In this document: in pieces, positions 2,526 through 18,124 of the stretch
How positions within the stretch are numbered: the stretch's first letter is position 1
How the letters are laid out: each line of letters opens with the position of its first letter
Origin: a virus
Direction: 5' to 3' (one strand)
Virus record (IMG/VR): IMGVR_UViG_3300036766_002267
Location: 1-42,230 of that record
Length of the DNA stretch: 42,230 nucleotides
The notes under the pieces: model-generated
Seen by the model: only the letters and a program-made list of their open reading frames with translations
The model's database searches: none
Told to the model about the DNA's origin: nothing
Position numbers and translations under genes: made by a program

Positions 2526-3770
2526 ATGGCAAAGAACCTGAAGAAATTCGTCAATCCGAAGTTCACAAGAACAACCGACCTCGGTCTTCTCCGCCGGCTC
2601 CTGGAGCGCCATCAGGCCGACCTCCACGGGTTCGACCTCGCTGTATTCGGGCGGCAGCCCGACGAGGCGCGCCGTACGATTCAGAACTTCTTCGCGGGCC
2701 CCGAGGACAATTATCCCGAGGGCCTGGTCGCTGATCTCCATCGCATCGCCGAACTCGGCAATGCCAACGGGTTGCAGCTTCTTCTAGAACAAGCTCGGCG
2801 GCGTGGCGTGCAAATCACCCCTGCCAACGACGGCGATGATACTGCGGAGGCGACGCAGGACCCGAAGCACGTCGCGCTCAGAATGTTTCTGGATCAGCCG
2901 GCGGTCTTTGACGCCGCGGCCGACATGCTGAGCTATACGACCCTATCCTCCTTCACCGAATTCGCGGGCGCTGAAGAGGGGATCGAGGCGCAAATCGACG
3001 ACGAGACTCAACAAGCCTTTCAGCGTGATGCCGAGCGTCTCTTCGAGGCCGACCTTCGTGGGCGATATTGCCGGGTCGGATGGTACGACGATGACGACGA
3101 GATCAATGTTGTCGTCACCCATGGCGCGCCGCTGAAGACGACCGAAATCATCGAGGCTGGTGCCGATCGCGTGATCAGCTTCCGGGAGGCGGAGCACGCG
3201 GTTCTGTCCTATGCCGCTGCCACCGGTCGGCTGAAGGTTGGCGGCTTCGCCAAAGCGCGCCGCGCAGAGCTTGCCGAGGTTTTTGCGGCCTCGATGCTCA
3301 AGCGGCCCCGGTTCTTTGCGGCTCCCGACGCCCAGAATCTCTACACTCTTGTGCCTGTCGAGCGTGCCGGCTTCGGTTTCACCTTTAATCACGCATTCGA
3401 TCCCAGCTTCCGCCGTGTGCAGATCGTCGAGGTTCAAGCAGACCGCCTTGGTACCGACCCGAGGTCCGGCGAGACGCGTACATTCTGGTCCCATGTGACG
3501 CGCGATGGCCGTGACAATGCGCTCGCGCGATTGGGCGAGGGGACGCGCGGCATCACTTTCGGCGCCGATTGGCGGCTCAACCACATGGTCATCCGTGCAC
3601 ACATCGATGTCGGTGGATCAAAACCGGCACGAGTGACGGTGAAGCTCAAGCCGCCGGACACGGCGATGTTCAAACGCCATCGCTTCGAGGGACGCATCAT
3701 GGCGCTTTTGCGCCGCAACGGACTCGTCAATGACAGACCGCCTGGCAAGGCTGCTGTTGCGGCTGAGTGA
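2526..3770 (+). CDS. Unknown protein, first gene of a two-gene cassette
   Basis: I do not recognise this 414-residue protein. It is soluble, with no signal peptide or membrane segment visible. The N-terminal 100 residues are helical and basic to mixed (MAKNLKKFVNPKF, then LLRRLLERHQADLHGFDLAV). A middle part carries a run of acidic residues (WYDDDDE), and the C-terminal part is richer in beta-strand-like segments. It reads as a single full-length gene and overlaps the following gene by 41 nt, so the two proteins are almost certainly made together. It lies between the integrase operon and the early phage operon, a place often used for lysogeny control or accessory defence genes. No catalytic motif could be named. 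It could be an effector, a DNA-processing protein or a sensor paired with the winged-helix partner. Confidence 0.8.
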   Translation: MAKNLKKFVNPKFTRTTDLGLLRRLLERHQADLHGFDLAVFGRQPDEARRTIQNFFAGPEDNYPEGLVADLHRIAELGNANGLQLLLEQARRRGVQITPANDGDDTAEATQDPKHVALRMFLDQPAVFDAAADMLSYTTLSSFTEFAGAEEGIEAQIDDETQQAFQRDAERLFEADLRGRYCRVGWYDDDDEINVVVTHGAPLKTTEIIEAGADRVISFREAEHAVLSYAAATGRLKVGGFAKARRAELAEVFAASMLKRPRFFAAPDAQNLYTLVPVERAGFGFTFNHAFDPSFRRVQIVEVQADRLGTDPRSGETRTFWSHVTRDGRDNALARLGEGTRGITFGADWRLNHMVIRAHIDVGGSKPARVTVKLKPPDTAMFKRHRFEGRIMALLRRNGLVNDRPPGKAAVAAE

Positions 3771-4707
3771 GGCTGGCGAACCCGCAATACTCTGGGGACG
3801 CCAGGCCAAGCCCTATCTCGGCCGGGATTTCGAGCGTCTTCTCGACCAAGGCCTCCTCGTCGAGGACGCACCGGCGACCGAGTGGAATGTCTGCTCTTCG
3901 TGCGAGTGCGATCTCGACGTCCGCCCGATCCAGCATATCGATGGCCGTCATGTCGCGGCCTGTCCACTCGATCAAAAGAGCGACCTCATCTTGGAGGCAG
4001 AAGATCTGAGGAGCTTTCGCATCGGCGTTCCTGCGCTCGTGCGCGAGATTGCGTCTGCCTCCGGCTTCTCGAACGAACCCTCGGAAACCGCAGCCGGCAT
4101 CTGGAATCTGGGCCTGACGCCATCAAAGCGAGCCGCCTTCCTCGCACTATCGATTACAGCGGTATTGCAATCGGGTCTTGTCGGGGCGCTTCGAATGATC
4201 GCTCGGTCTTCGCCGATCACGATGATCGCGCCGGCATTATCATTAGCCGAGCAACTGCGCTTCGCTGAAGCGGAAATCCACCTGGTCACGGTGCACGATG
4301 TGATCGGTCCAGGCGATGGCACCATGCCGTTCGCGATCGACTTGGCGAAGCTGGAGTCGCCGTCGGCATTCGCTCCGCGCCTCGTCATCGTCCGATCGGC
4401 AAAATCCGTAACGCTCGATGGTGTCTCCAGCACGCTCTCCGATCAGTCGTTCGAACTTCTTTGCCTGCTTGCTGAGCGTGCGTCGACCGATAATCCTTTC
4501 GCGTCAACTCGTGATGTCGAAGCCCGGATCTGGGGCGACTCCATTCATCGAGTCTCACGCGCCGCTCGCGATGTCGTTCGAGAGCTTCGTAATGCGCTCG
4601 CAGCGGACGTTTCAGAACCCGATGCACTTCGCCAGCTCATCGAGAACAAGCGCAATCGCGGCTGGCGTCTGACGCTGACGGCGGACGAGATCGACCTCCG
4701 GGCCTAA
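3730..4707 (+). CDS. Cys-cluster/winged-helix protein, second gene of cassette
   Basis: The 325-residue protein has three visible parts. The N-terminal part is helical and then shows a zinc-ribbon-like Cys cluster (C55, C58, C60 and C78, around NVCSSCECDLDV and HVAACPLD). A middle region at about 95-220 has no recognised motif but contains hydrophobic strand-like segments (SSPITMIAPAL, PRLVIVRS). The C-terminal part at about 225-316 resembles an OmpR/PhoB-type winged helix: SVTLDGVSSTLSDQSFELLC opens it, an R-rich recognition helix follows (VSRAARDVVRELRNAL), and NKRNRGWRLTL forms the wing strand. No receiver domain is seen. It starts inside the preceding gene (41-nt overlap). A DNA-binding regulator or sensor working with the 2526 protein is the simplest reading; a two-gene defence or superinfection-immunity system is an alternative. 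Confidence 0.8.
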   Translation: MTDRLARLLLRLSEAGEPAILWGRQAKPYLGRDFERLLDQGLLVEDAPATEWNVCSSCECDLDVRPIQHIDGRHVAACPLDQKSDLILEAEDLRSFRIGVPALVREIASASGFSNEPSETAAGIWNLGLTPSKRAAFLALSITAVLQSGLVGALRMIARSSPITMIAPALSLAEQLRFAEAEIHLVTVHDVIGPGDGTMPFAIDLAKLESPSAFAPRLVIVRSAKSVTLDGVSSTLSDQSFELLCLLAERASTDNPFASTRDVEARIWGDSIHRVSRAARDVVRELRNALAADVSEPDALRQLIENKRNRGWRLTLTADEIDLRA

Positions 4708-4785
4708 CGCCTGAGCCTTCCCACACTTTTCCCACGACATCCCCACGCCAAGCCCACCAAGCGCGGCGGGGCGGTCGGCATCCTG

Positions 4786-4807
4786 CGGTCATCAACAGCG
4801 ATGACCG
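4786..4807. promoter_or_regulatory. Inverted repeat before the sigma-like gene
   Basis: A perfect 8-bp inverted repeat, CGGTCATC (4786-4793) and GATGACCG (4800-4807), encloses a 6-nt loop. It sits 12 nt upstream of the ATG of the sigma-like gene at 4820. No T-run follows, so it is more likely an operator or a 5'UTR hairpin than a terminator. The rest of the 4708-4819 gap shows no other recognised signal. Confidence 0.4.
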
Positions 4808-4819
4808 AGGCTTTGACCG

Positions 4820-5389
4820 ATGTCGATTTCCCGATCCCACCTGCAGATCATTCAGCATGAAGCCGACATTGCGGCCCGCCGCCTGATCCGCCAACTGCGT
4901 CTTCCCTACGACGATCTCGGCGACCTCCGTCAGGAGTTCCTTCTCGACCTGTTCGCCCGTCTGCCGGCCTTCGATCCGGAACGCGGTTCGATCGGCGCAT
5001 TCGCGGGCATCGTCATGGCGAACAGAGCGACCCGTATTGCGCACAAAGTGAAACGCGACCGCCGGCTTTATGGCGCCGTGCCGGCCTCGCTCGACGCAAC
5101 CTTGCCCGATAGCGACGGCGCCACGCGCGGCGATCTCGTTGCCGAAGAGGACGGTCTCGCGGCCTACCTCGGTCAGCGGGTGGACGCTTTCGCCGAGGTC
5201 GAGCACCGACTCGACGTCGAGCGTGGCCTCGGCACCCTCGATCCGAACGACGGCGCCCTCTGCGCCGCGCTTTCCCGGACGACCATCGATCGGCTTGCGG
5301 GCGGTGGCCGTGGGGCTCGCAGCAGCCTCTATCGCCGCGTGAAGGACATCCGTCTCGCTTTGCTCGCCGTTGGCCTGAGGGCCGCGTGA
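4820..5389 (+). CDS. Sigma-70-like RNA polymerase sigma factor
   Basis: The 189-residue protein has a sigma region-2-like segment at about residues 31-82: DDLGDLRQEFLLDLFARLPA is followed by FDPERGSIGAFAGIVMANRA and a basic stretch (HKVKRDRR). This matches the DLxQExxLxxxxxxxxFDPxRG pattern of sigma-70 family members. A C-terminal helical stretch (TIDRLAGGGRGARSSLYRRV) could be a region-4-like HTH, but it is weak. It heads the long rightward early operon, so a role in redirecting host RNA polymerase to phage promoters is plausible. The alternative is a terminase-like or replication regulator with a sigma-like fold. Confidence 0.75.
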   Translation: MSISRSHLQIIQHEADIAARRLIRQLRLPYDDLGDLRQEFLLDLFARLPAFDPERGSIGAFAGIVMANRATRIAHKVKRDRRLYGAVPASLDATLPDSDGATRGDLVAEEDGLAAYLGQRVDAFAEVEHRLDVERGLGTLDPNDGALCAALSRTTIDRLAGGGRGARSSLYRRVKDIRLALLAVGLRAA

Positions 5390-5423
5390 GACGGTTTAGC
5401 CGCGTGGCGAGTAGGAGCCAATC

Positions 5424-5765
5424 ATGATCAGCGCCATCACCAAGCTACCGAGCGTCCGGCTACGGATCAACGAAACCGACCTGTGCGGCTGGATCGGCCA
5501 GGCGGCTCCCGGCGACGTCCTGGAATATTACCGCGGCTTTCTCGCAATGGACACGTTTTCGCACGGGACGCGCCTTCCCGAGCGCGACCGCGCGGAGCTC
5601 ACCCGACTGGCGCGCCGCGCCTGGTGGGCCGGCGAGCAGAAGCTGATCCACCTCGTTCAGCGCCGGCACGGTCCCGACGACTACAGCTATCTCGCAATCG
5701 CGCGCCTGAAGCCAAGGAGCTGCCCGGCCTCGCTCTCATCGCTGCTGTTGGCGGAGGTCGCGTGA
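5424..5765 (+). CDS. Conserved small phage protein, unknown function
   Basis: This 113-residue protein begins after a good ribosome-binding site (AGGAG about 8 nt before the ATG). It has an N-terminal LRINETDLCGWIGQAAPGDV segment, then a YYRGFLAMD motif, then an Arg- and Glu-rich helical part. Proteins with this pattern accompany the sigma-like gene in Rhizobiales prophages as far as I can recall. No function is assigned. The end overlaps the following tiny ORF by one base (TGATG). Confidence 0.7.
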   Translation: MISAITKLPSVRLRINETDLCGWIGQAAPGDVLEYYRGFLAMDTFSHGTRLPERDRAELTRLARRAWWAGEQKLIHLVQRRHGPDDYSYLAIARLKPRSCPASLSSLLLAEVA

Positions 5766-9068: not shown

Positions 9069-10369
9069 CCATCACCCTCTCCGAGAGCCAGCGCGCGGCG
9101 ATCACCACGGTCAAGGACTGGTACGAGAACCGCACGAAGGAGCAGCAGGTCTGCCGCGTGTTCGGCTATGCCGGCGCCGGGAAGAGCACGATCGTCAAGT
9201 ATGCGATCGAGGAACTGGGACTCTCGACGCCGGGAGCCGAGTCGAAGATCGGCGACGTGCTCTATGCCGCATTCACCGGCAAGGCCGCCCTGGTGATGAC
9301 GCGCAAGGGCACACCCGCGTCCACCATCCATTCCCTCATCTACCGCGTCTCGGAGGCGAGCCCACAGGAAATCGAGAAGCTCAAGGCCGAGGTTGCCGAG
9401 TTACACGCGAAACTGCCGTCCCTCGGAGTAGCCGAGCGATTGTTCGAGGAATCCCGCCTTCGGTCGCTCGAGCTGCGCCTGAAGGACGTGCACAAGCCGC
9501 GCTTCGTGCTCAATTCCGAATCCGTCCTGCGCGATGCCAAGCTGCTGGTGCTCGACGAGGTGTCCATGGTCGGCGCGGAGATGGCGCGCGATCTCCTCGC
9601 CTTCGGCAGGCCGACTCTCGTCCTGGGTGATCCCGGCCAGTTGCCACCGGTCAAGGGCGAGGGCGCCTTCGACACCGACAAGCCCGACGTGCTCTTGACC
9701 GAAGTGCACCGTCAGGCCGGCGACAGCGCCGTCATCCGCCTTGCGACCTGGGCGCGCGAGGGAAAGCCGATTCCCTACGGCGAGCACGATGAATTCGTGT
9801 GGAAAATGCGCCGGTCTGATGTCGACGCATCGGGCCTGCTCCGGGCCGGCCAGGTGATCTGCGGGCGCAACGCCACGCGCATGCAGCTCAACCTCGCCAT
9901 GAAGCAGGCCGCAGGCTTTGCTGCTTCCTATCCGACCGGGGCCGGCGAGAAGCTGATCTGCCTGCGCAACCGCAACGACATCGGCCTGGTCAACGGCATG
10001 TTCGTGACCCTCGGCGACATCGAGGAGGATGGCGACGAGATCGCCTTCAAGGCCGCGATCACCACCGAGGACGGGCACAAGGTCGGTGGCGAGACCAACG
10101 GCAAGCGCGAGCGCTTCCGCATCTATCGCGGCCACTTCGACGATCATCTGTCGCCCGATCCCGATCGGGACCGGCGCGACCATCATAAGAAGCGGACCCT
10201 GATCGAGTGCGTCTGGGGCTGGGCCATCACGTGTCACAAGTCGCAGGGCTCCCAGTTCGAGAACGTCGTGGTGTTCGACGACGGGCTCGGGCGCACGCCG
10301 CAGGATCGTGCACGCTGGCTCTACACCGCCATCACCCGCGCAGAGCGCGGGCTGGTGCTGCTCGATTGA
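9065..10369 (+). CDS. RecD/Dda-like SF1 DNA helicase
   Basis: The 434-residue protein is a superfamily 1 helicase. Walker A is GYAGAGKST at about residues 34-42, Walker B is VLDEVSMVG at about 161-169, motif III is LVLGDPGQLPPV at about 185-196, and the C-terminal motifs are ITCHKSQGSQFENVV and YTAITRAERGL near the end. The order and spacing fit RecD2/Dda-type 5'-3' helicases. It is coupled to the nuclease upstream (4-nt overlap) and lies directly before the primase, so it probably works in replication restart or recombination-dependent replication. Confidence 0.93.
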   Translation: MTITLSESQRAAITTVKDWYENRTKEQQVCRVFGYAGAGKSTIVKYAIEELGLSTPGAESKIGDVLYAAFTGKAALVMTRKGTPASTIHSLIYRVSEASPQEIEKLKAEVAELHAKLPSLGVAERLFEESRLRSLELRLKDVHKPRFVLNSESVLRDAKLLVLDEVSMVGAEMARDLLAFGRPTLVLGDPGQLPPVKGEGAFDTDKPDVLLTEVHRQAGDSAVIRLATWAREGKPIPYGEHDEFVWKMRRSDVDASGLLRAGQVICGRNATRMQLNLAMKQAAGFAASYPTGAGEKLICLRNRNDIGLVNGMFVTLGDIEEDGDEIAFKAAITTEDGHKVGGETNGKRERFRIYRGHFDDHLSPDPDRDRRDHHKKRTLIECVWGWAITCHKSQGSQFENVVVFDDGLGRTPQDRARWLYTAITRAERGLVLLD

Positions 10370-10376
10370 GGCGCCA

Positions 10377-13310
10377 ATGCTCGACCTCAACGACGCGCAA
10401 CCTGTATGGCCGGTCGAGCGGTTTGACCTCGATGCCATCGTGTTGCGTCTGCGCGATAGCGCCGAGCAATGGGTTCCGCGGCTGTTCCCGAACGGCCGGC
10501 GGATGGGCGATGAATGGCGGCTCGCCAATATCCAGGGCGCCGCGCCGCGCAAGAACGGCTCTTGCGTGATCGCGCTCACGGGCGAGCATGCGGGCGACTG
10601 GATCGACTTCGATGATGGTCATGGCGGTGGACCGCTCAGCACATTGGAGAATGCAACAGGACTCAGCGGACGCGAGCTGTTTGCCTACGCGGCCGATCTG
10701 ACAAAAACGAGCACGCAGCCGAAACGGTCCGCCGCCAAGCCGTCGTCCAAGCGGGCCGATCAGGCCCGCGAGATCGAACACATCCTCTCCAAGGCAGTGC
10801 CGATCGCAGGCACGTTGGGCGAGCGATATCTCGCCTCGCGTGGAGTACCGGCGTCCGACTGCTCCGACCTCCTGTTCCATCCCGACCTGACGCATTGGGA
10901 AAGCCGGCGTGGCTTTCCGGGTCTGGCAGCCGTGGTACGGGACGTTGCCGGAAACCGCATCGCGCTCCACCGCACCTATCTCGCCGACGACGGCACTGCC
11001 AAGGCGCCGGTCGATAACCCGCGAAAAATGCTGGCCTCGATCGCAGGCGGCGCCGTGCGGCTTGCCGATCTGACTAAAGACGGCGTCATCGGTCTCGCCG
11101 AGGGCATCGAGACGGCGCTCTCGGTGATGGTGGCATGTGCGCGCCTGCCCGTCTGGGCAACACTCTCGACCTCCAACCTGGAACAGGTGGCTCTGCCCAT
11201 CGAAGCACGGAAGGTCGTGCTCCTTGCCGACCACGATCCCTCCGGCGCCGGCGCGCGCGCGGCCGAGACTGCCGCCGCCCGTTTGCATGCCGAGGGACGT
11301 CGGGTCTTCATCGCCATGCCGCCACAGGAGGGCGACGACTTCAATGACCTGCTGCTGCGCGACGGCGTCGAAACCGTGCGCAGAATCGTTGAGGCGGCGG
11401 TCGAATGGGGCGCCCACGGCAACGACGACCGCGTGATCCTCGCCATCGACAGTGGCACGCACAAGCCGATCGGCTTCGGACAGTCCGATCGCCCACGACC
11501 TCAGTTGCGCGCCGACAACGGCGATCTGGCGCGCGCGGTGTCGCAGGCGTGGCAGATTCTGCTCGCCGCCAATGATCCGCCCTGGATGTTCCGTGCCGCC
11601 GGATGCCCGACTTGGGTAGTGCGCGACGACGACGGCCTGCCCATGGCGAAGCCCCTGACCGAGGATCGCCTGCGTCCGGTGCTCGCTCAACTCGCCGATT
11701 GGCGAAAGCTCTCCCGCAACGGCGATCTTGTCCCGGCCCATCCACCATTGGCGGTGATCAAGTCGATCCTCGCCACGCCCGATCCGGCGCTTCCCGTGCT
11801 GACAGGCATCGTCACGACGCCGGTGTTCGGCCGCGAGGGCGATCTCATCACCGAGCCCGGCTACCATCCGGCTGCGCGCCTGCTCTACGACCCGCCCAAG
11901 GGCTTCGCCCTGCCACCCGTCGCCATGCAGCCGACGCCGGCAAACATCGCCGCGGCGCGGTCTTTGCTGCTCGACGATCTGTTGGGAGATTTCCCATTCA
12001 TCGGCGAAGCCGAGCGCGCGCATGCGCTGGCGCTCCTGCTTGTGGGCTTCGTGCGCGCCATGATTGATGGGCCGACTCCACTGCATCTGGTCGAGAAGCC
12101 GACCCAAGGCACCGGCGCGACGCTGATGGTGGACATGATGTCGGTCGTCGCGATCGGCTGCCGCGCCAGCGTCATGGTCGAAGGCAGCGACGACGAGGAA
12201 TGGCGCAAGCGCTTGACCGCCAAGCTGCGCCAGATCCCGTCAGTCGTTCTGATCGACAATCTGCGGCGCCCGCTCGACTCCTCGGCGCTCGCTGCCGCGC
12301 TCACCGCACCGTTCTGGGAAGACCGCATCCTCGGTGTCTCGGAAACGACGCGGCTGCCGATCCGCTGCATCTGGATTGCCACCGGCAACAATGCCGAGTT
12401 CTCGGGCGAGATGGCGCGCCGGCTGGTGCGCATTCGGCTCGACGCCCGCGTCGACCAGCCCTGGCGTCGCAGCGGCTTCCGCCATCCCGATCTCATGGGC
12501 TGGGTGCATGCCAACCGGGCAGGCCTCGTCGCCGCTTGCCTGACGCTGTGCCGCGCCTGGATCGCGGCCGGCATGCCGCGCGGGGCTAAGCACATCGGCA
12601 GCTTCGAAGCCTGGGCTGCCGTGATGGGCGGCATGCTCGACGCGATCGGCGTTCCCGGATTCCTTGGCAACATCGATGAGATGCTCGAAGCCTCCGACGG
12701 CGAAGGCGCCGTCTGGCGCGTGTTCGTCGGACAATGGTGGGACCGCTTCGGCACCGCCGAGGTCGGTACCAGCGGGCTCTACGAGCTCGCCGTCAACTGC
12801 GAGCCGCCGCTGCCGCTCGGCACCGGCGGCGACCGTTCGCAGCGAATCCGGCTCGGCAAGGCGCTCGCGCGCATGCGCGACCGGGTATTCGACATCGGCG
12901 GACTCAAGGCGCGCATCCGCGCGATTGGCGTCTCGCACCAGGCCCGCCGCTGGCAGCTCGCCCTCGAAGGGGAACGTGGGGAACGTTTGCCAGACTTCTC
13001 CGAAGCAGAAAAAGGGGAATGTCAGGCGTCTGTCACCCAACATTCCCCCCAACGTTCCCCGGCCTATCCCATTGATCGAGAAGGGCTCGGGGAATGTGGG
13101 GAAGGTGGGGAATGTTTTTCCGACCTCCGCGCGTGCGCGCGCGTACACAATAATAAAGAAGAGCAAACACATTCCCCACCTTCCCCACATTCCCAAAACG
13201 CTGACAATTCAGCGGCTTGTACCGGGGAGGATGGCGGGGAAGGTCGCCAACCACGTTCCCCACATTCCCTAGACGCAGATTCCCCCGATTGGCTGAAGGG
13301 GGTGCCGTGA
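10377..13310 (+). CDS. Toprim DNA primase / helicase-like protein
   Basis: I start at the ATG at 10377, with a GAGG sequence just upstream, giving 977 residues. The N-terminal half is a primase: a Toprim fold carries AEGIETALS (Glu242) and ADHDPSGAG (Asp285 and Asp287). The second half is an AAA+-like module. Its P-loop position (KPTQGTGATL, 574-583) has Ala where the catalytic Lys is expected, followed by VVLIDN (623-628), IWIATGNN (665-672) and a basic finger (ARRLVRIRLD). ATP hydrolysis may therefore be lost or altered. The last 110 or so residues are low-complexity because the DNA there is a repeat array (12969-13270). It probably primes and helps unwind phage DNA near that array. Confidence 0.88.
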   Translation: MLDLNDAQPVWPVERFDLDAIVLRLRDSAEQWVPRLFPNGRRMGDEWRLANIQGAAPRKNGSCVIALTGEHAGDWIDFDDGHGGGPLSTLENATGLSGRELFAYAADLTKTSTQPKRSAAKPSSKRADQAREIEHILSKAVPIAGTLGERYLASRGVPASDCSDLLFHPDLTHWESRRGFPGLAAVVRDVAGNRIALHRTYLADDGTAKAPVDNPRKMLASIAGGAVRLADLTKDGVIGLAEGIETALSVMVACARLPVWATLSTSNLEQVALPIEARKVVLLADHDPSGAGARAAETAAARLHAEGRRVFIAMPPQEGDDFNDLLLRDGVETVRRIVEAAVEWGAHGNDDRVILAIDSGTHKPIGFGQSDRPRPQLRADNGDLARAVSQAWQILLAANDPPWMFRAAGCPTWVVRDDDGLPMAKPLTEDRLRPVLAQLADWRKLSRNGDLVPAHPPLAVIKSILATPDPALPVLTGIVTTPVFGREGDLITEPGYHPAARLLYDPPKGFALPPVAMQPTPANIAAARSLLLDDLLGDFPFIGEAERAHALALLLVGFVRAMIDGPTPLHLVEKPTQGTGATLMVDMMSVVAIGCRASVMVEGSDDEEWRKRLTAKLRQIPSVVLIDNLRRPLDSSALAAALTAPFWEDRILGVSETTRLPIRCIWIATGNNAEFSGEMARRLVRIRLDARVDQPWRRSGFRHPDLMGWVHANRAGLVAACLTLCRAWIAAGMPRGAKHIGSFEAWAAVMGGMLDAIGVPGFLGNIDEMLEASDGEGAVWRVFVGQWWDRFGTAEVGTSGLYELAVNCEPPLPLGTGGDRSQRIRLGKALARMRDRVFDIGGLKARIRAIGVSHQARRWQLALEGERGERLPDFSEAEKGECQASVTQHSPQRSPAYPIDREGLGECGEGGECFSDLRACARVHNNKEEQTHSPPSPHSQNADNSAACTGEDGGEGRQPRSPHSLDADSPDWLKGVP
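12969..13270. repeat. 9-bp iteron-like array, candidate replication origin
   Basis: At least 12 exact copies of GGGGAANGT (N = C, T or G) are packed in about 300 bp. Forward copies begin at 12969, 12978, 13014, 13089, 13098, 13107 and 13236. Reverse copies begin at 13040, 13052, 13169, 13178 and 13253, with one-mismatch copies at 13187 and 13262. Three forward copies are head to tail at 13089-13115, and their mirror forms 13169-13195. The array overlaps the primase 3' end, forcing a low-complexity protein tail. Such clustered short repeats beside a primase gene are what initiator-binding iterons look like. CRISPR is excluded because there are no regular spacers. Confidence 0.75.
13090..13194. 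repeat. 26-bp perfect inverted repeat in the origin array
   Basis: Positions 13090-13115 are exactly complementary to 13169-13194, separated by 53 nt. Each arm is made of three 9-bp repeats. The spacer has a 22-bp alternating pyrimidine-purine tract (13128-13149, mostly CG then CACA) that is prone to Z-DNA. Next comes an AT-rich stretch (about 13145-13168) that stands out in this GC-rich genome and could be an unwinding element. A cruciform or a strong transcript hairpin is possible. Confidence 0.8.
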
Positions 13311-15495: not shown

Positions 15496-16887
15496 ATGAA
15501 ATCTCGCTTGCCCGACGCGGTCGAGCACTGGCCGCTCGACCGGCTGATTCCCTATGCGCGGAATGCCCGCACGCATGCGGACGACCAGGTCGCGCAGATC
15601 GCGGCCTCGATTGTCGAGTTCGGCTGGACCAATCCGATCCTGGTCGACGCGGAGGGCGGGCTCGTCGCTGGCCACGGCCGGCTGCTTGCGGCACGCAAAC
15701 TCGGCCTCGACACGGTGCCCGTTGTCGTTCTCGATCACCTGACACCGGCGCAGCGACGCGCCTACGTCATCGCCGATAACAAGCTCGCGCTCAACGCCGG
15801 CTGGAACGAGGAACTGCTGGCGGCCGAGCTGCACGCGTTGAACGGCGAGGGCTTCGACCTTGCGCTCACCGGATTTTCCGAGACGGAGCTCGATGCGCTC
15901 ATGGCGCCGCTCGGCGAGGAGACGGAGGGCAGCGATGGTAGCGGCGAGGACGCCGCCGATGAAATGCCGGCACCGCCCCGCGCGCCGATCTCGCGCACCG
16001 GCGATCTCTGGCTGATTGGCAATCACCGCCTGCTGTGTGGCGACAGCACGGATGCTTCGGCCATCGCGCGGGTCATGAACGGCGAGCGCGCGGCGCTCGT
16101 TTTCACCTCGCCGCCTTATGGCAATCAGCGCGATTACACGACCGGCGGCGTGGGCGATTGGGACGCGCTCATGCGCAGGGTGTTCGCGGAATTGCCGGTC
16201 ATCGAGCCGGCGCAGGTTCTGGTCAATCTCGGTCTCATTCACCGCGACAACGAGTGGCTGCCGTACTGGCAGACCTGGCTCGCATGGATGGCGGAGCAAG
16301 GCTGGCGGCGGTTCGGACTCTATGTCTGGGACCAGGGGCCAGGACTTCCGGGCGATTGGAACGGGCGCTTGGCGCCTGCATTCGAGCTCGTCTTCCATTT
16401 CAATCGCAAGGCGCGCAAGCCCAACAAGATCGTGCCCTGCAAATGGGCCGGCCACGTCAACGACACGCACGGCGGCATCCGGCACAAGGACGGCCACGTC
16501 GGCGAATGGAATCACGCGGGACAGGGCGTCCAGGAGACGCGCATCCCCGACAACGTCATCCGCATCACGCGGCACAAGGCGCGCGGGATCGAGACCGAGC
16601 ACCCGGCCGTGTTCCCGGTTGCGCTGCCCGAGTTTGTGATGCGCGCCTACAGTGGCAACGGCGATATCATCTACGAGCCCTTTTCCGGCGCGGGCACCAG
16701 CATCGTGGCGGGCGAGCGCACCGGCCGAAAGGTCAGAGCGATCGAGCTCGCCCCCGAATATGTCGACCTCGCCATCCTGCGGTGGCGGAAACTCTTCCCG
16801 GACAAATCAGTGACCCTCGATGGCGAAGGCCAATCCTTCGAAGCAGTCGCGCGCGAGCGCGGCGTCGCAATCCTTGACGCCGTCTGA
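15496..16887 (+). CDS. ParB-domain DNA methyltransferase fusion 1 (TSPPY type)
   Basis: The 463-residue protein joins an N-terminal ParB/sulfiredoxin-like nuclease domain (about 10-130, with GLVAGHGRLLAARKLG at 55-70) to a C-terminal DNA methyltransferase. Catalytic motif IV is TSPPYG (204-209) and the SAM-binding motif I is EPFSGAGTS (394-402). Motif IV before motif I is the beta-class order. The SPPY form is commonest in N4-cytosine enzymes, so cytosine N4 is a reasonable guess. No restriction endonuclease is nearby; an orphan methylase could protect phage DNA from host restriction or control gene expression. It overlaps the second fusion by 68 nt. Confidence 0.9.
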   Translation: MKSRLPDAVEHWPLDRLIPYARNARTHADDQVAQIAASIVEFGWTNPILVDAEGGLVAGHGRLLAARKLGLDTVPVVVLDHLTPAQRRAYVIADNKLALNAGWNEELLAAELHALNGEGFDLALTGFSETELDALMAPLGEETEGSDGSGEDAADEMPAPPRAPISRTGDLWLIGNHRLLCGDSTDASAIARVMNGERAALVFTSPPYGNQRDYTTGGVGDWDALMRRVFAELPVIEPAQVLVNLGLIHRDNEWLPYWQTWLAWMAEQGWRRFGLYVWDQGPGLPGDWNGRLAPAFELVFHFNRKARKPNKIVPCKWAGHVNDTHGGIRHKDGHVGEWNHAGQGVQETRIPDNVIRITRHKARGIETEHPAVFPVALPEFVMRAYSGNGDIIYEPFSGAGTSIVAGERTGRKVRAIELAPEYVDLAILRWRKLFPDKSVTLDGEGQSFEAVARERGVAILDAV

Positions 16888-18124
16888 CTCGCTGCAGGTC
16901 GAGCTATGGCCGATCGAGCAGCTCTTGCCATACGCGGCCAATGCGCGGACCCACCCGGGCGAGCAGGTTGCTCAGATCGCGGGATCGATTGCGGAGTTTG
17001 GTTTCAACGTTCCCTGTCTCGTGGACGACCGCGGCGTGTTGATCGCAGGCCATGGACGGATCGTCGCCGCGAAGCGTCTCGGACTGAAGCAGGTTCCGGT
17101 TATTCGGCTGGGGCACCTGACCGACGCCCAGGCGCGCGCCTTCCGGCTCGCCGACAATCGCATCGCGCTCAACGCCGGCTGGGACGAAGCGATGCTGGCT
17201 GCCGAGCTCGATCGTCTCAAGGAAGACGGCGTCGATCTCGATCTACTCGGCTTTGCCGAGGACGAGCTCGACCGGCTGCTCGATGGCCTCGATCAAAATG
17301 GGTCATCCGAGGAAGAGGACGAAATCCCGGAACCGCCCACCGAGGCGGTCACGCGCCCAGGCGACCTTTGGCTGCTCGGGGCGCATCGGCTCTTGTGTGG
17401 CGACGCGACGGTCGCGACCGACGTTCAACGGTTGCTCGCTGGCGTGCGTCCACACCTGATGGTGACGGACCCGCCCTACGGCGTCGAGTACGATCCGAAC
17501 TGGCGGAACGAATCCGGGGTTTCCGAGACGGCTCGTGTCGGCAAAGTCAGCAACGATGATCGCGCCGATTGGCGCGACGCCTGGAGTCTGTTTCCGGGCG
17601 AGGTCGCCTATGTCTGGCACTCCGGGGTCCACGCGCGGACCGTTGCCGAGAGTCTCGATGCTTGTGGCTTCCTGATCAGGGCGCAGATCGTATGGGCCAA
17701 GCCCCGCCTGGTGCTGAGCCGCGGCGATTATCATTGGCAGCACGAACCGTGCTTCTACGCGGTGCGAAAGGGCGCCACCGGCCATTGGCAGGGCGCCCGC
17801 GACCAATCGACTCTCTGGACCATCGCCACCGGCGAGAACGACGAGGCCACCGAGCACGGGACGCAGAAGCCGGTCGAGTGCATGCGCCGGCCGATCGTGA
17901 ACAACAGCGCGAAAGGTGATCTGGTCTACGAGCCCTTCGCAGGTTCAGGCACGACACTGATTGCCGCGGACTCCGTTGGCCGCGTTTGCCTCGCACTCGA
18001 AATCGATCCGCGCTACTGCGACGTCGTCATCGAGCGCTGGCAGCGCCATGCAGGAGTCGCAGCCACGCTTGCCGACGACGGTCGCACCTTCGATGCGCTG
18101 AAGAACGAGCGGTTAGCCGCATGA
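16820..18124 (+). CDS. ParB-domain DNA methyltransferase fusion 2 (DPPY type)
   Basis: The 434-residue protein has the same architecture as its neighbour: a ParB-like domain (about 27-150, with VLIAGHGRIVAAKRLG), then an acidic linker (SSEEEDE), then a methyltransferase with motif IV DPPYG (217-221) and motif I EPFAGSGTT (371-379). DPPY points to N6-adenine methylation. The two proteins align along their ParB parts and look like an old tandem duplication that diverged in the catalytic motif. A downstream TTG at 16874 could be an alternative start; the ATG at 16820 gives the longest reading but has no strong ribosome-binding site. A terminator-like hairpin follows the stop. Confidence 0.9.
   Translation: MAKANPSKQSRASAASQSLTPSDSLQVELWPIEQLLPYAANARTHPGEQVAQIAGSIAEFGFNVPCLVDDRGVLIAGHGRIVAAKRLGLKQVPVIRLGHLTDAQARAFRLADNRIALNAGWDEAMLAAELDRLKEDGVDLDLLGFAEDELDRLLDGLDQNGSSEEEDEIPEPPTEAVTRPGDLWLLGAHRLLCGDATVATDVQRLLAGVRPHLMVTDPPYGVEYDPNWRNESGVSETARVGKVSNDDRADWRDAWSLFPGEVAYVWHSGVHARTVAESLDACGFLIRAQIVWAKPRLVLSRGDYHWQHEPCFYAVRKGATGHWQGARDQSTLWTIATGENDEATEHGTQKPVECMRRPIVNNSAKGDLVYEPFAGSGTTLIAADSVGRVCLALEIDPRYCDVVIERWQRHAGVAATLADDGRTFDALKNERLAA

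Follow-up and report, generated by a model that had tools for sequence, protein, structure and literature searches.

The question raised by this locus is why a phage primase gene ends in a dense array of short repeats, and which protein reads them. The window, which is the whole stretch of 42,230 nucleotides that was analyzed, is an IMG/VR virus record with genes for a recombinase, Sak4, a Cas4 exonuclease, a Dda-like helicase, terminase, portal, and tail proteins. Its near relatives are prophages of Pseudolabrys, and the family as a whole is a large one of phages of alphaproteobacteria. Each of two consecutive genes at 15496–18124 encodes a fusion of a ParB-like nuclease domain with a DNA methyltransferase.

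The array and the gene that contains it

All 12 exact copies of the unit GGGGAANGT in the window were located within 12969–13261, compared with an expectation of 0.94 and a maximum of 4 copies in shuffled windows. Three near copies were also counted: TGGGAATGT (13187–13195, minus strand), GGGGAGGAT (13224–13232, plus strand; two mismatches, with a full unit at this site in relatives), and AGGGAATGT (13262–13270, minus strand). The array, with units in both orientations, thus spans 12969–13270. The original prediction had listed 12 exact and two near copies within about 300 bp; the exact copies were all recovered, whereas the number of near copies rose to three.

Two head-to-tail triplets face each other in the array, the left arm at 13089–13115 on the plus strand and the right arm, whose third unit has one mismatch, at 13169–13195 on the minus strand. 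As had been predicted, they form a perfect 26-bp inverted repeat (13090–13115 and 13169–13194), and the match extends to 30 nt at 97%. The 53-bp spacer between the triplets (13116–13168) is a candidate melting region; the alternating CG/CA tract and AT-rich stretch described for it were found as a 22-nt alternating purine/pyrimidine run (13128–13149) followed by an A-rich stretch. Outlying units occupy 13224–13261 (plus strand at 13224, the copy with two mismatches, and at 13236; minus strand at 13253), at steps of 55, 12, and 17 from 13169. The array, spacer, tract, and outlying set were assigned to neither strand. GC skew has a shallow local minimum at 13–14 kb near the array and its global minimum near 41 kb, but is uninformative because it is confounded by genes lying on one strand.

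The predicted overlap with coding DNA also held, since the array lies within the final 340 bases of an open frame extending from a GTG at 10308 to 13310. Within the window the codon phase is the same for every forward unit, and a second phase is common to every reverse unit. The gene itself probably starts at the ATG at 10377 (10377–13310, plus strand, as are all its domains) and encodes a primase-helicase composed of a toprim primase, a D5-like helicase, a winged helix, and a variable tail. Residues 128–330 (10758–11366) matched the DUF7146 and Toprim_3 primase domains, and the predicted structure of residues 123–358 matched the DnaG and T7 gp4 primases. An SF3/D5-like AAA+ helicase domain was assigned to residues ∼380–765 (11514–12671) by structure; the predicted structure of residues ∼367–864 matched D5-type helicases (SaPI5 primase-helicase, vaccinia D5, and PriRep1 with dsDNA), with 7ola, 8apl, and 7pds at Z ∼11 over 320–360 residues. 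A sequence search of solved structures found no homologue. The P-loop (residues 574–582, 12096–12122) reads KPTQGTGAT, with alanine A581 in place of the catalytic Walker A lysine. Both this alanine, which was invariant in 167 sequences, and K574, seven residues before it, are invariant, and unwinding by the primase-helicase is therefore not assured. Elsewhere the P-loop reads KPTPGTGAS in Ruegeria phages, KPTPGTGGT in phiCbK, and the canonical GTGKS in a Methylobacterium plasmid homologue.

The last 100 residues of the helicase-like structure (764–863, 12666–12965) are predicted to form a winged helix, with helices at 764–791, 798–807, and 819–832 and a hairpin at 843–853/856–863. The recognition helix (819–832) is encoded at 12831–12872 and the wing tip (852–856) at 12930–12944. 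The best structural partners of this domain were mostly winged-helix proteins; because all had Z below 8, the assignment is to the fold class and not to a kinship, and Foldseek with the isolated domain returned no significant match. Zalpha (Z-DNA-binding) domains were among the structural partners at Z ∼6–7, and the tract at 13128–13149 is Z-prone; this pairing may be a coincidence arising from a common fold. Behind the array the gene ends with a conserved C-terminal peptide, PDWLKGVP (13284–13307).

Conserved layout and changing units

Relatives were collected with the query alone (79 viral and 32 genome loci) and with an alignment (80 loci, partly on the same contigs). The original prediction had named a lack of conservation in related prophages as evidence against an origin; instead, an array is present in each of the 113 distinct relatives whose tail could be read (59–96% identity), with a median of 12 copies having at most one mismatch. 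The layout consists of a plus-strand triplet, a spacer, a minus-strand triplet, and then outlying copies, at steps of 55, 12, and 17 bp in the arrays inspected, which the window fits exactly. Spacers measure 53–65 bp, mostly 53, 56, 59, 62, or 65 bp. They contain an alternating purine/pyrimidine run with a median of 24 nt, versus 6.2 in shuffles, and with a median of 41% A+T they are not strongly AT-rich. The layout script found no center in 20 of the 113 arrays, mostly because of a chance two-mismatch match inside the spacer; the listed runs of these arrays still show the facing triplets.

Equal density of the 9-mer elsewhere in the host genome, likewise named as evidence against an origin, was excluded by counts in two related host genomes, where the tandem pair is confined to arrays of this kind and single 9-mers outside arrays occur about once per 80–120 kb. 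In viral contigs, dense GGGGAACGT arrays were found at the end of the primase-helicase gene wherever the contig was long enough. Dense arrays with no window-type primase nearby were truncated at a contig end, except for contig L322 and its near-identical sister L263. No match to the array DNA was found among named phages, and a repeat-enrichment script detected no array like the window's in the distant homologues of large lytic phages (30–35% identity) or in those of plasmids. The Pseudolabrys genome G001 contains three such arrays (C1:1838937, 1872015, and 1926276), all with the unit GGGGAACGT, so that co-resident prophages could cross-activate. Two Jannaschia loci (L098 and L103) share the unit TGTGAACCT.

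A stricter search for the exact triplet pattern found only one contig, the first hint that the unit varies. About 25 consensus units occur across lineages, 18 of them from the first set and a further seven from the held-out primases, including GGGGAACGT, GGGGAACCT, TGTGAACCT, GGGGGACCT, CGTGAGGGT, and GGTGAATGT. Each array is coherent in both orientations, and its copies agree with their own consensus at 85–99% per position. Unit detection set the register by demanding G at two positions of the seed 9-mer, 2 and 4, so that part of the constancy seen there is an effect of the method. Thus, of the original proposal of a 9-bp motif, the array stands as a conserved layout, and a fixed sequence does not: the unit changes in concert with the winged helix.

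The changes can be seen between close relatives. L104 and L049, whose primases share 95.6% identity, have arrays of TGTGAACCT and GGGGAACCT, respectively. Their 56-bp spacers and gene ends are almost identical, while positions 1 and 3 are changed in the units all along the array. Among near relatives of these two classes, the columns that split without overlap all lie within residues 842–862. In three further tails (L156, L143, and L171) the units are unusual or mixed (GGTGACCGT and GGGGTACCT) or a rule relating residue to base is broken (H854 with T at position 3); these arrays are possible intermediates of switching.

Covariation between units and winged helix

The 856 primase columns from 73 representatives (effective number ∼39) were scored for covariation with the letters of the unit. 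The best columns were 854 for positions 1 and 3, 856 for position 5, 820 for position 6, and 824 for position 7. At position 3, 48 representatives had G with H854 and 25 had T with Q or R, with zero exceptions among the 73. All partner columns belong to the C-terminal winged helix, whose coding sequence immediately precedes the array. Columns of the Dda-like helicase, Cas4, the SSB-like protein, and Sak4 reached at most 0.42, compared with 0.47–0.70 for the primase, and had no comparable link with the unit.

Shared ancestry was taken into account with a tree of residues 1–780, on which changes were counted by parsimony from a single FastTree topology. Position 3 changed 17 times, and ∼16.5 of these changes shared their branch with a change of residue 854. 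The tree ranking was topped by 855, 820, 856, and 824 for positions 1, 6, 5, and 7, respectively. For position 8 the best column was 781 rather than 828, so 828 is only a candidate partner of that position. On a tree of the domain alone with the contact residues removed, changes at position 3 and residue 854 coincided in seven of seven cases. The same residue-to-letter pairs recur across lineages that are just ∼57% identical.

The arrangement of the partners is also informative. On the recognition helix, residues 820, 824, and 828 share one face and correspond, in turn, to unit positions 6, 7, and 8, the last more weakly. Wing-tip residues 854–856 track positions 1, 3, and 5 (854 with position 3, 854/855 with position 1, and 856 with position 5). 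In the predicted structure this order is the geometry expected for a winged helix on DNA.

Rules fixed beforehand from the first set were then applied to 21 held-out primases with <95% identity to any training protein. They predicted 117 of 124 unit letters correctly: 17/21 at position 1, 20/21 at position 3, 19/19 at position 5 (with two abstentions), 20/21 at position 6, 21/21 at position 7, and 20/21 at position 8. Guessing from the nearest relative of the same 21 gave 93/126 when relatives were chosen by residues 1–780 and 105/126 when they were chosen by the domain without its contact residues. The position-1 rule brought no gain over that guess, and position 6 hardly varied in the hold-out set. 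The misses suggest refinements made after the fact, namely that L853 plus H854 goes with T at position 1 and that, at position 5, V856 goes with G and L856 with T.

Letter-by-letter covariation, success on the held-out units, and the lack of a link to neighboring proteins lead us to conclude that the primase-helicase reads the array. We have high confidence, from these comparisons of sequences, that its winged helix is the reader; the domain's fold agrees with this assignment, and covariation places the reading in the C-terminal domain. The original prediction had put forward the N-terminal part of the primase or the SSB-like protein as the binder, and the covariation points away from both. 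Comparison of the relatives showed that layout rather than sequence is conserved and that the unit covaries with specific winged-helix residues.

Function of the array and its known counterparts

We consider it very probable that the array serves the phage as its replication origin and that its reader is the C-terminal winged helix of the primase-helicase, whose gene contains the array. The idea of an iteron origin inside its own primase gene was the core of the original prediction, and it is still the best reading, with far more in its favor now than the bare sequence had offered. The function as an origin, as distinct from the identity of the reader, is the most likely one by analogy and anatomy. 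In such an origin, several copies of the primase-helicase would bind the tandem 9-bp units through the winged helix, and the facing triplets would place two helicase assemblies head to head across the 53–65-bp spacer. The spacer would then be opened and primed by the toprim domain. Binding, loading, melting, and the start of synthesis are all inferred from related systems.

Covariation identifies the reader and not the purpose of the array, which leaves some room for a site that the primase-helicase binds for autoregulation or copy control (an operator, a roadblock, or a handcuffing locus) and that is not an origin. Binding within a transcribed gene would indeed affect the transcript. Operators, however, are normally found at promoters and not at the 3′ end of a gene, and the anatomy of the array, with its facing triplets, its spacer, and its outlying copies at fixed places, matches the origins behind related genes (those of PICIs and the rep_origin of phiadh), so we regard a control site as unlikely. 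We consider it considerably less likely still that winged helix and array merely form a linked recombination block in which covariation arises by hitchhiking and another protein is the reader. Domain and array do adjoin, and close pairs differ in both at once. A block of this kind does not account for the recurrence of the same residue–letter pairs in lineages ∼57% identical, for the coincident changes on the domain tree lacking the contact residues, or for partners confined to individual columns of the recognition helix and wing tip instead of spread over the whole block. Nor does it explain why the rules outperformed nearest relatives by the same domain on held-out units, or why neighboring proteins had no covariation.

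Least credible of all, in our judgment, is that selection acts on peptides of the tail (GER and RSP), with the DNA repeat as its by-product. Such selection would fit the codon phases, one for forward and another for reverse units in 108 of 113 arrays, and the WL motif at the C-terminus. That motif, W[LW] within the last 14 residues, is present behind the array in 105 of 112 relatives, so the reading frame through the array has been kept; the conserved peptide is possibly a partner-binding tail. But the peptides encoded by forward copies have no relation to those encoded by reverse copies, a change of unit affects both orientations coherently, and the arrays of L109 and L082 are in another phase and encode different peptides, which indicates that selection on the repeat does not act through the peptide.

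With the reading domain lying next to its sites in a single gene, a switch of specificity can take place en bloc. The rewriting of a dozen scattered units in concert, with the spacer unchanged, may point to an active homogenizing process; that conversion between units made a dozen sites change together is a guess. We offer only tentatively the broader proposal that specificity and all origin units have been rewritten together repeatedly within one gene according to a simple residue-to-base code, with active homogenization through unit-to-unit conversion; the driving force could be a need to avoid cross-recognition by other phages, satellites, or decoy origins. The family provides a natural, testable code between an initiator winged helix and its probable origin, with >100 reader–site pairs, ∼17 switches at one base, and rules that did well on phages not used to derive them, and the joint change of multicopy binding sites and their reader becomes directly testable. 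The array accounts for the odd tails of these primases, and origins in uncultured phages could be placed and typed from the protein alone.

The closest known counterparts are the SaPI/PICI replicons. The C-terminal domain of SaPI Rep binds iterons directly behind its gene, and Cch2 does likewise in vitro (PMC7581432); in these elements a self-loading helicase acts with two sets of short iterons, placed beside the gene on either side of a putative melting region (PMC7581432; PMC6092414). The window shares with them a D5/SF3-type helicase, C-terminal reading (here by covariation), a probable origin adjacent to the gene, and two iteron sets, its facing triplets across a 53–65-bp spacer, although these lie within the gene. 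It differs in having a DnaG-like toprim primase instead of an archaeo-eukaryotic one, an array that is part of the coding frame and is followed by a conserved peptide, a GC-rich alternating spacer, and an altered P-loop. Unlike those satellites, it is a complete phage with genes for head and tail, carries terminase, portal, and tail genes, and does not have the makeup of a helper-dependent element.

Origins of this layout, which has been described as peculiar to PICIs, have close counterparts in full phages. In phi105, phiadh, PSA, CL2, and phiSP15-1 (L364–L368), the first 300 bp past the primase gene contain facing sets of 9–10-bp units that flank an AT-rich spacer and differ from phage to phage; only that of phiadh is annotated as rep_origin. 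In Lactobacillus phage phiadh and similar Gram-positive siphophages the array is noncoding, in contrast to the in-gene array of the window family, and the primase-helicases belong to a different type, whose sequences do not match that of the window significantly. Contig L322 encodes (2995–5472) a D5_N/Pox_D5-type primase-helicase without sequence kinship to that of the window; an array inside its coding tail (5211–5327) has three and four facing units of TGTGAACCT followed by a cysteine-rich peptide, and appears to be independent of the window family's.

In lambda, an iteron origin lies inside the O gene, and initiator and iteron types are matched among lambdoid phages. The window resembles this system in that its putative origin lies inside the gene of the inferred reader. 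Lambda O is neither a helicase nor a primase, reads with its N-terminal part, and has iterons longer than the 9-bp units found here, whereas the window protein is a toprim primase-helicase with C-terminal covarying residues and is not a lambda-O-related initiator. RepA of N15 and PY54 and the alpha protein of P4 are each one multidomain primase-helicase initiator, with an internal origin in N15 and PY54; to our knowledge, facing 9-bp triplets have not been described for them. A literature search within the papers available found no earlier description of the window's phage family, which is not proof of absence. Given the counterparts in SaPI/PICI elements, phiadh-like phages, and L322, this kind of origin is already known or nearly so; what is new is its position within the gene, the readable code, and the repeated switching.
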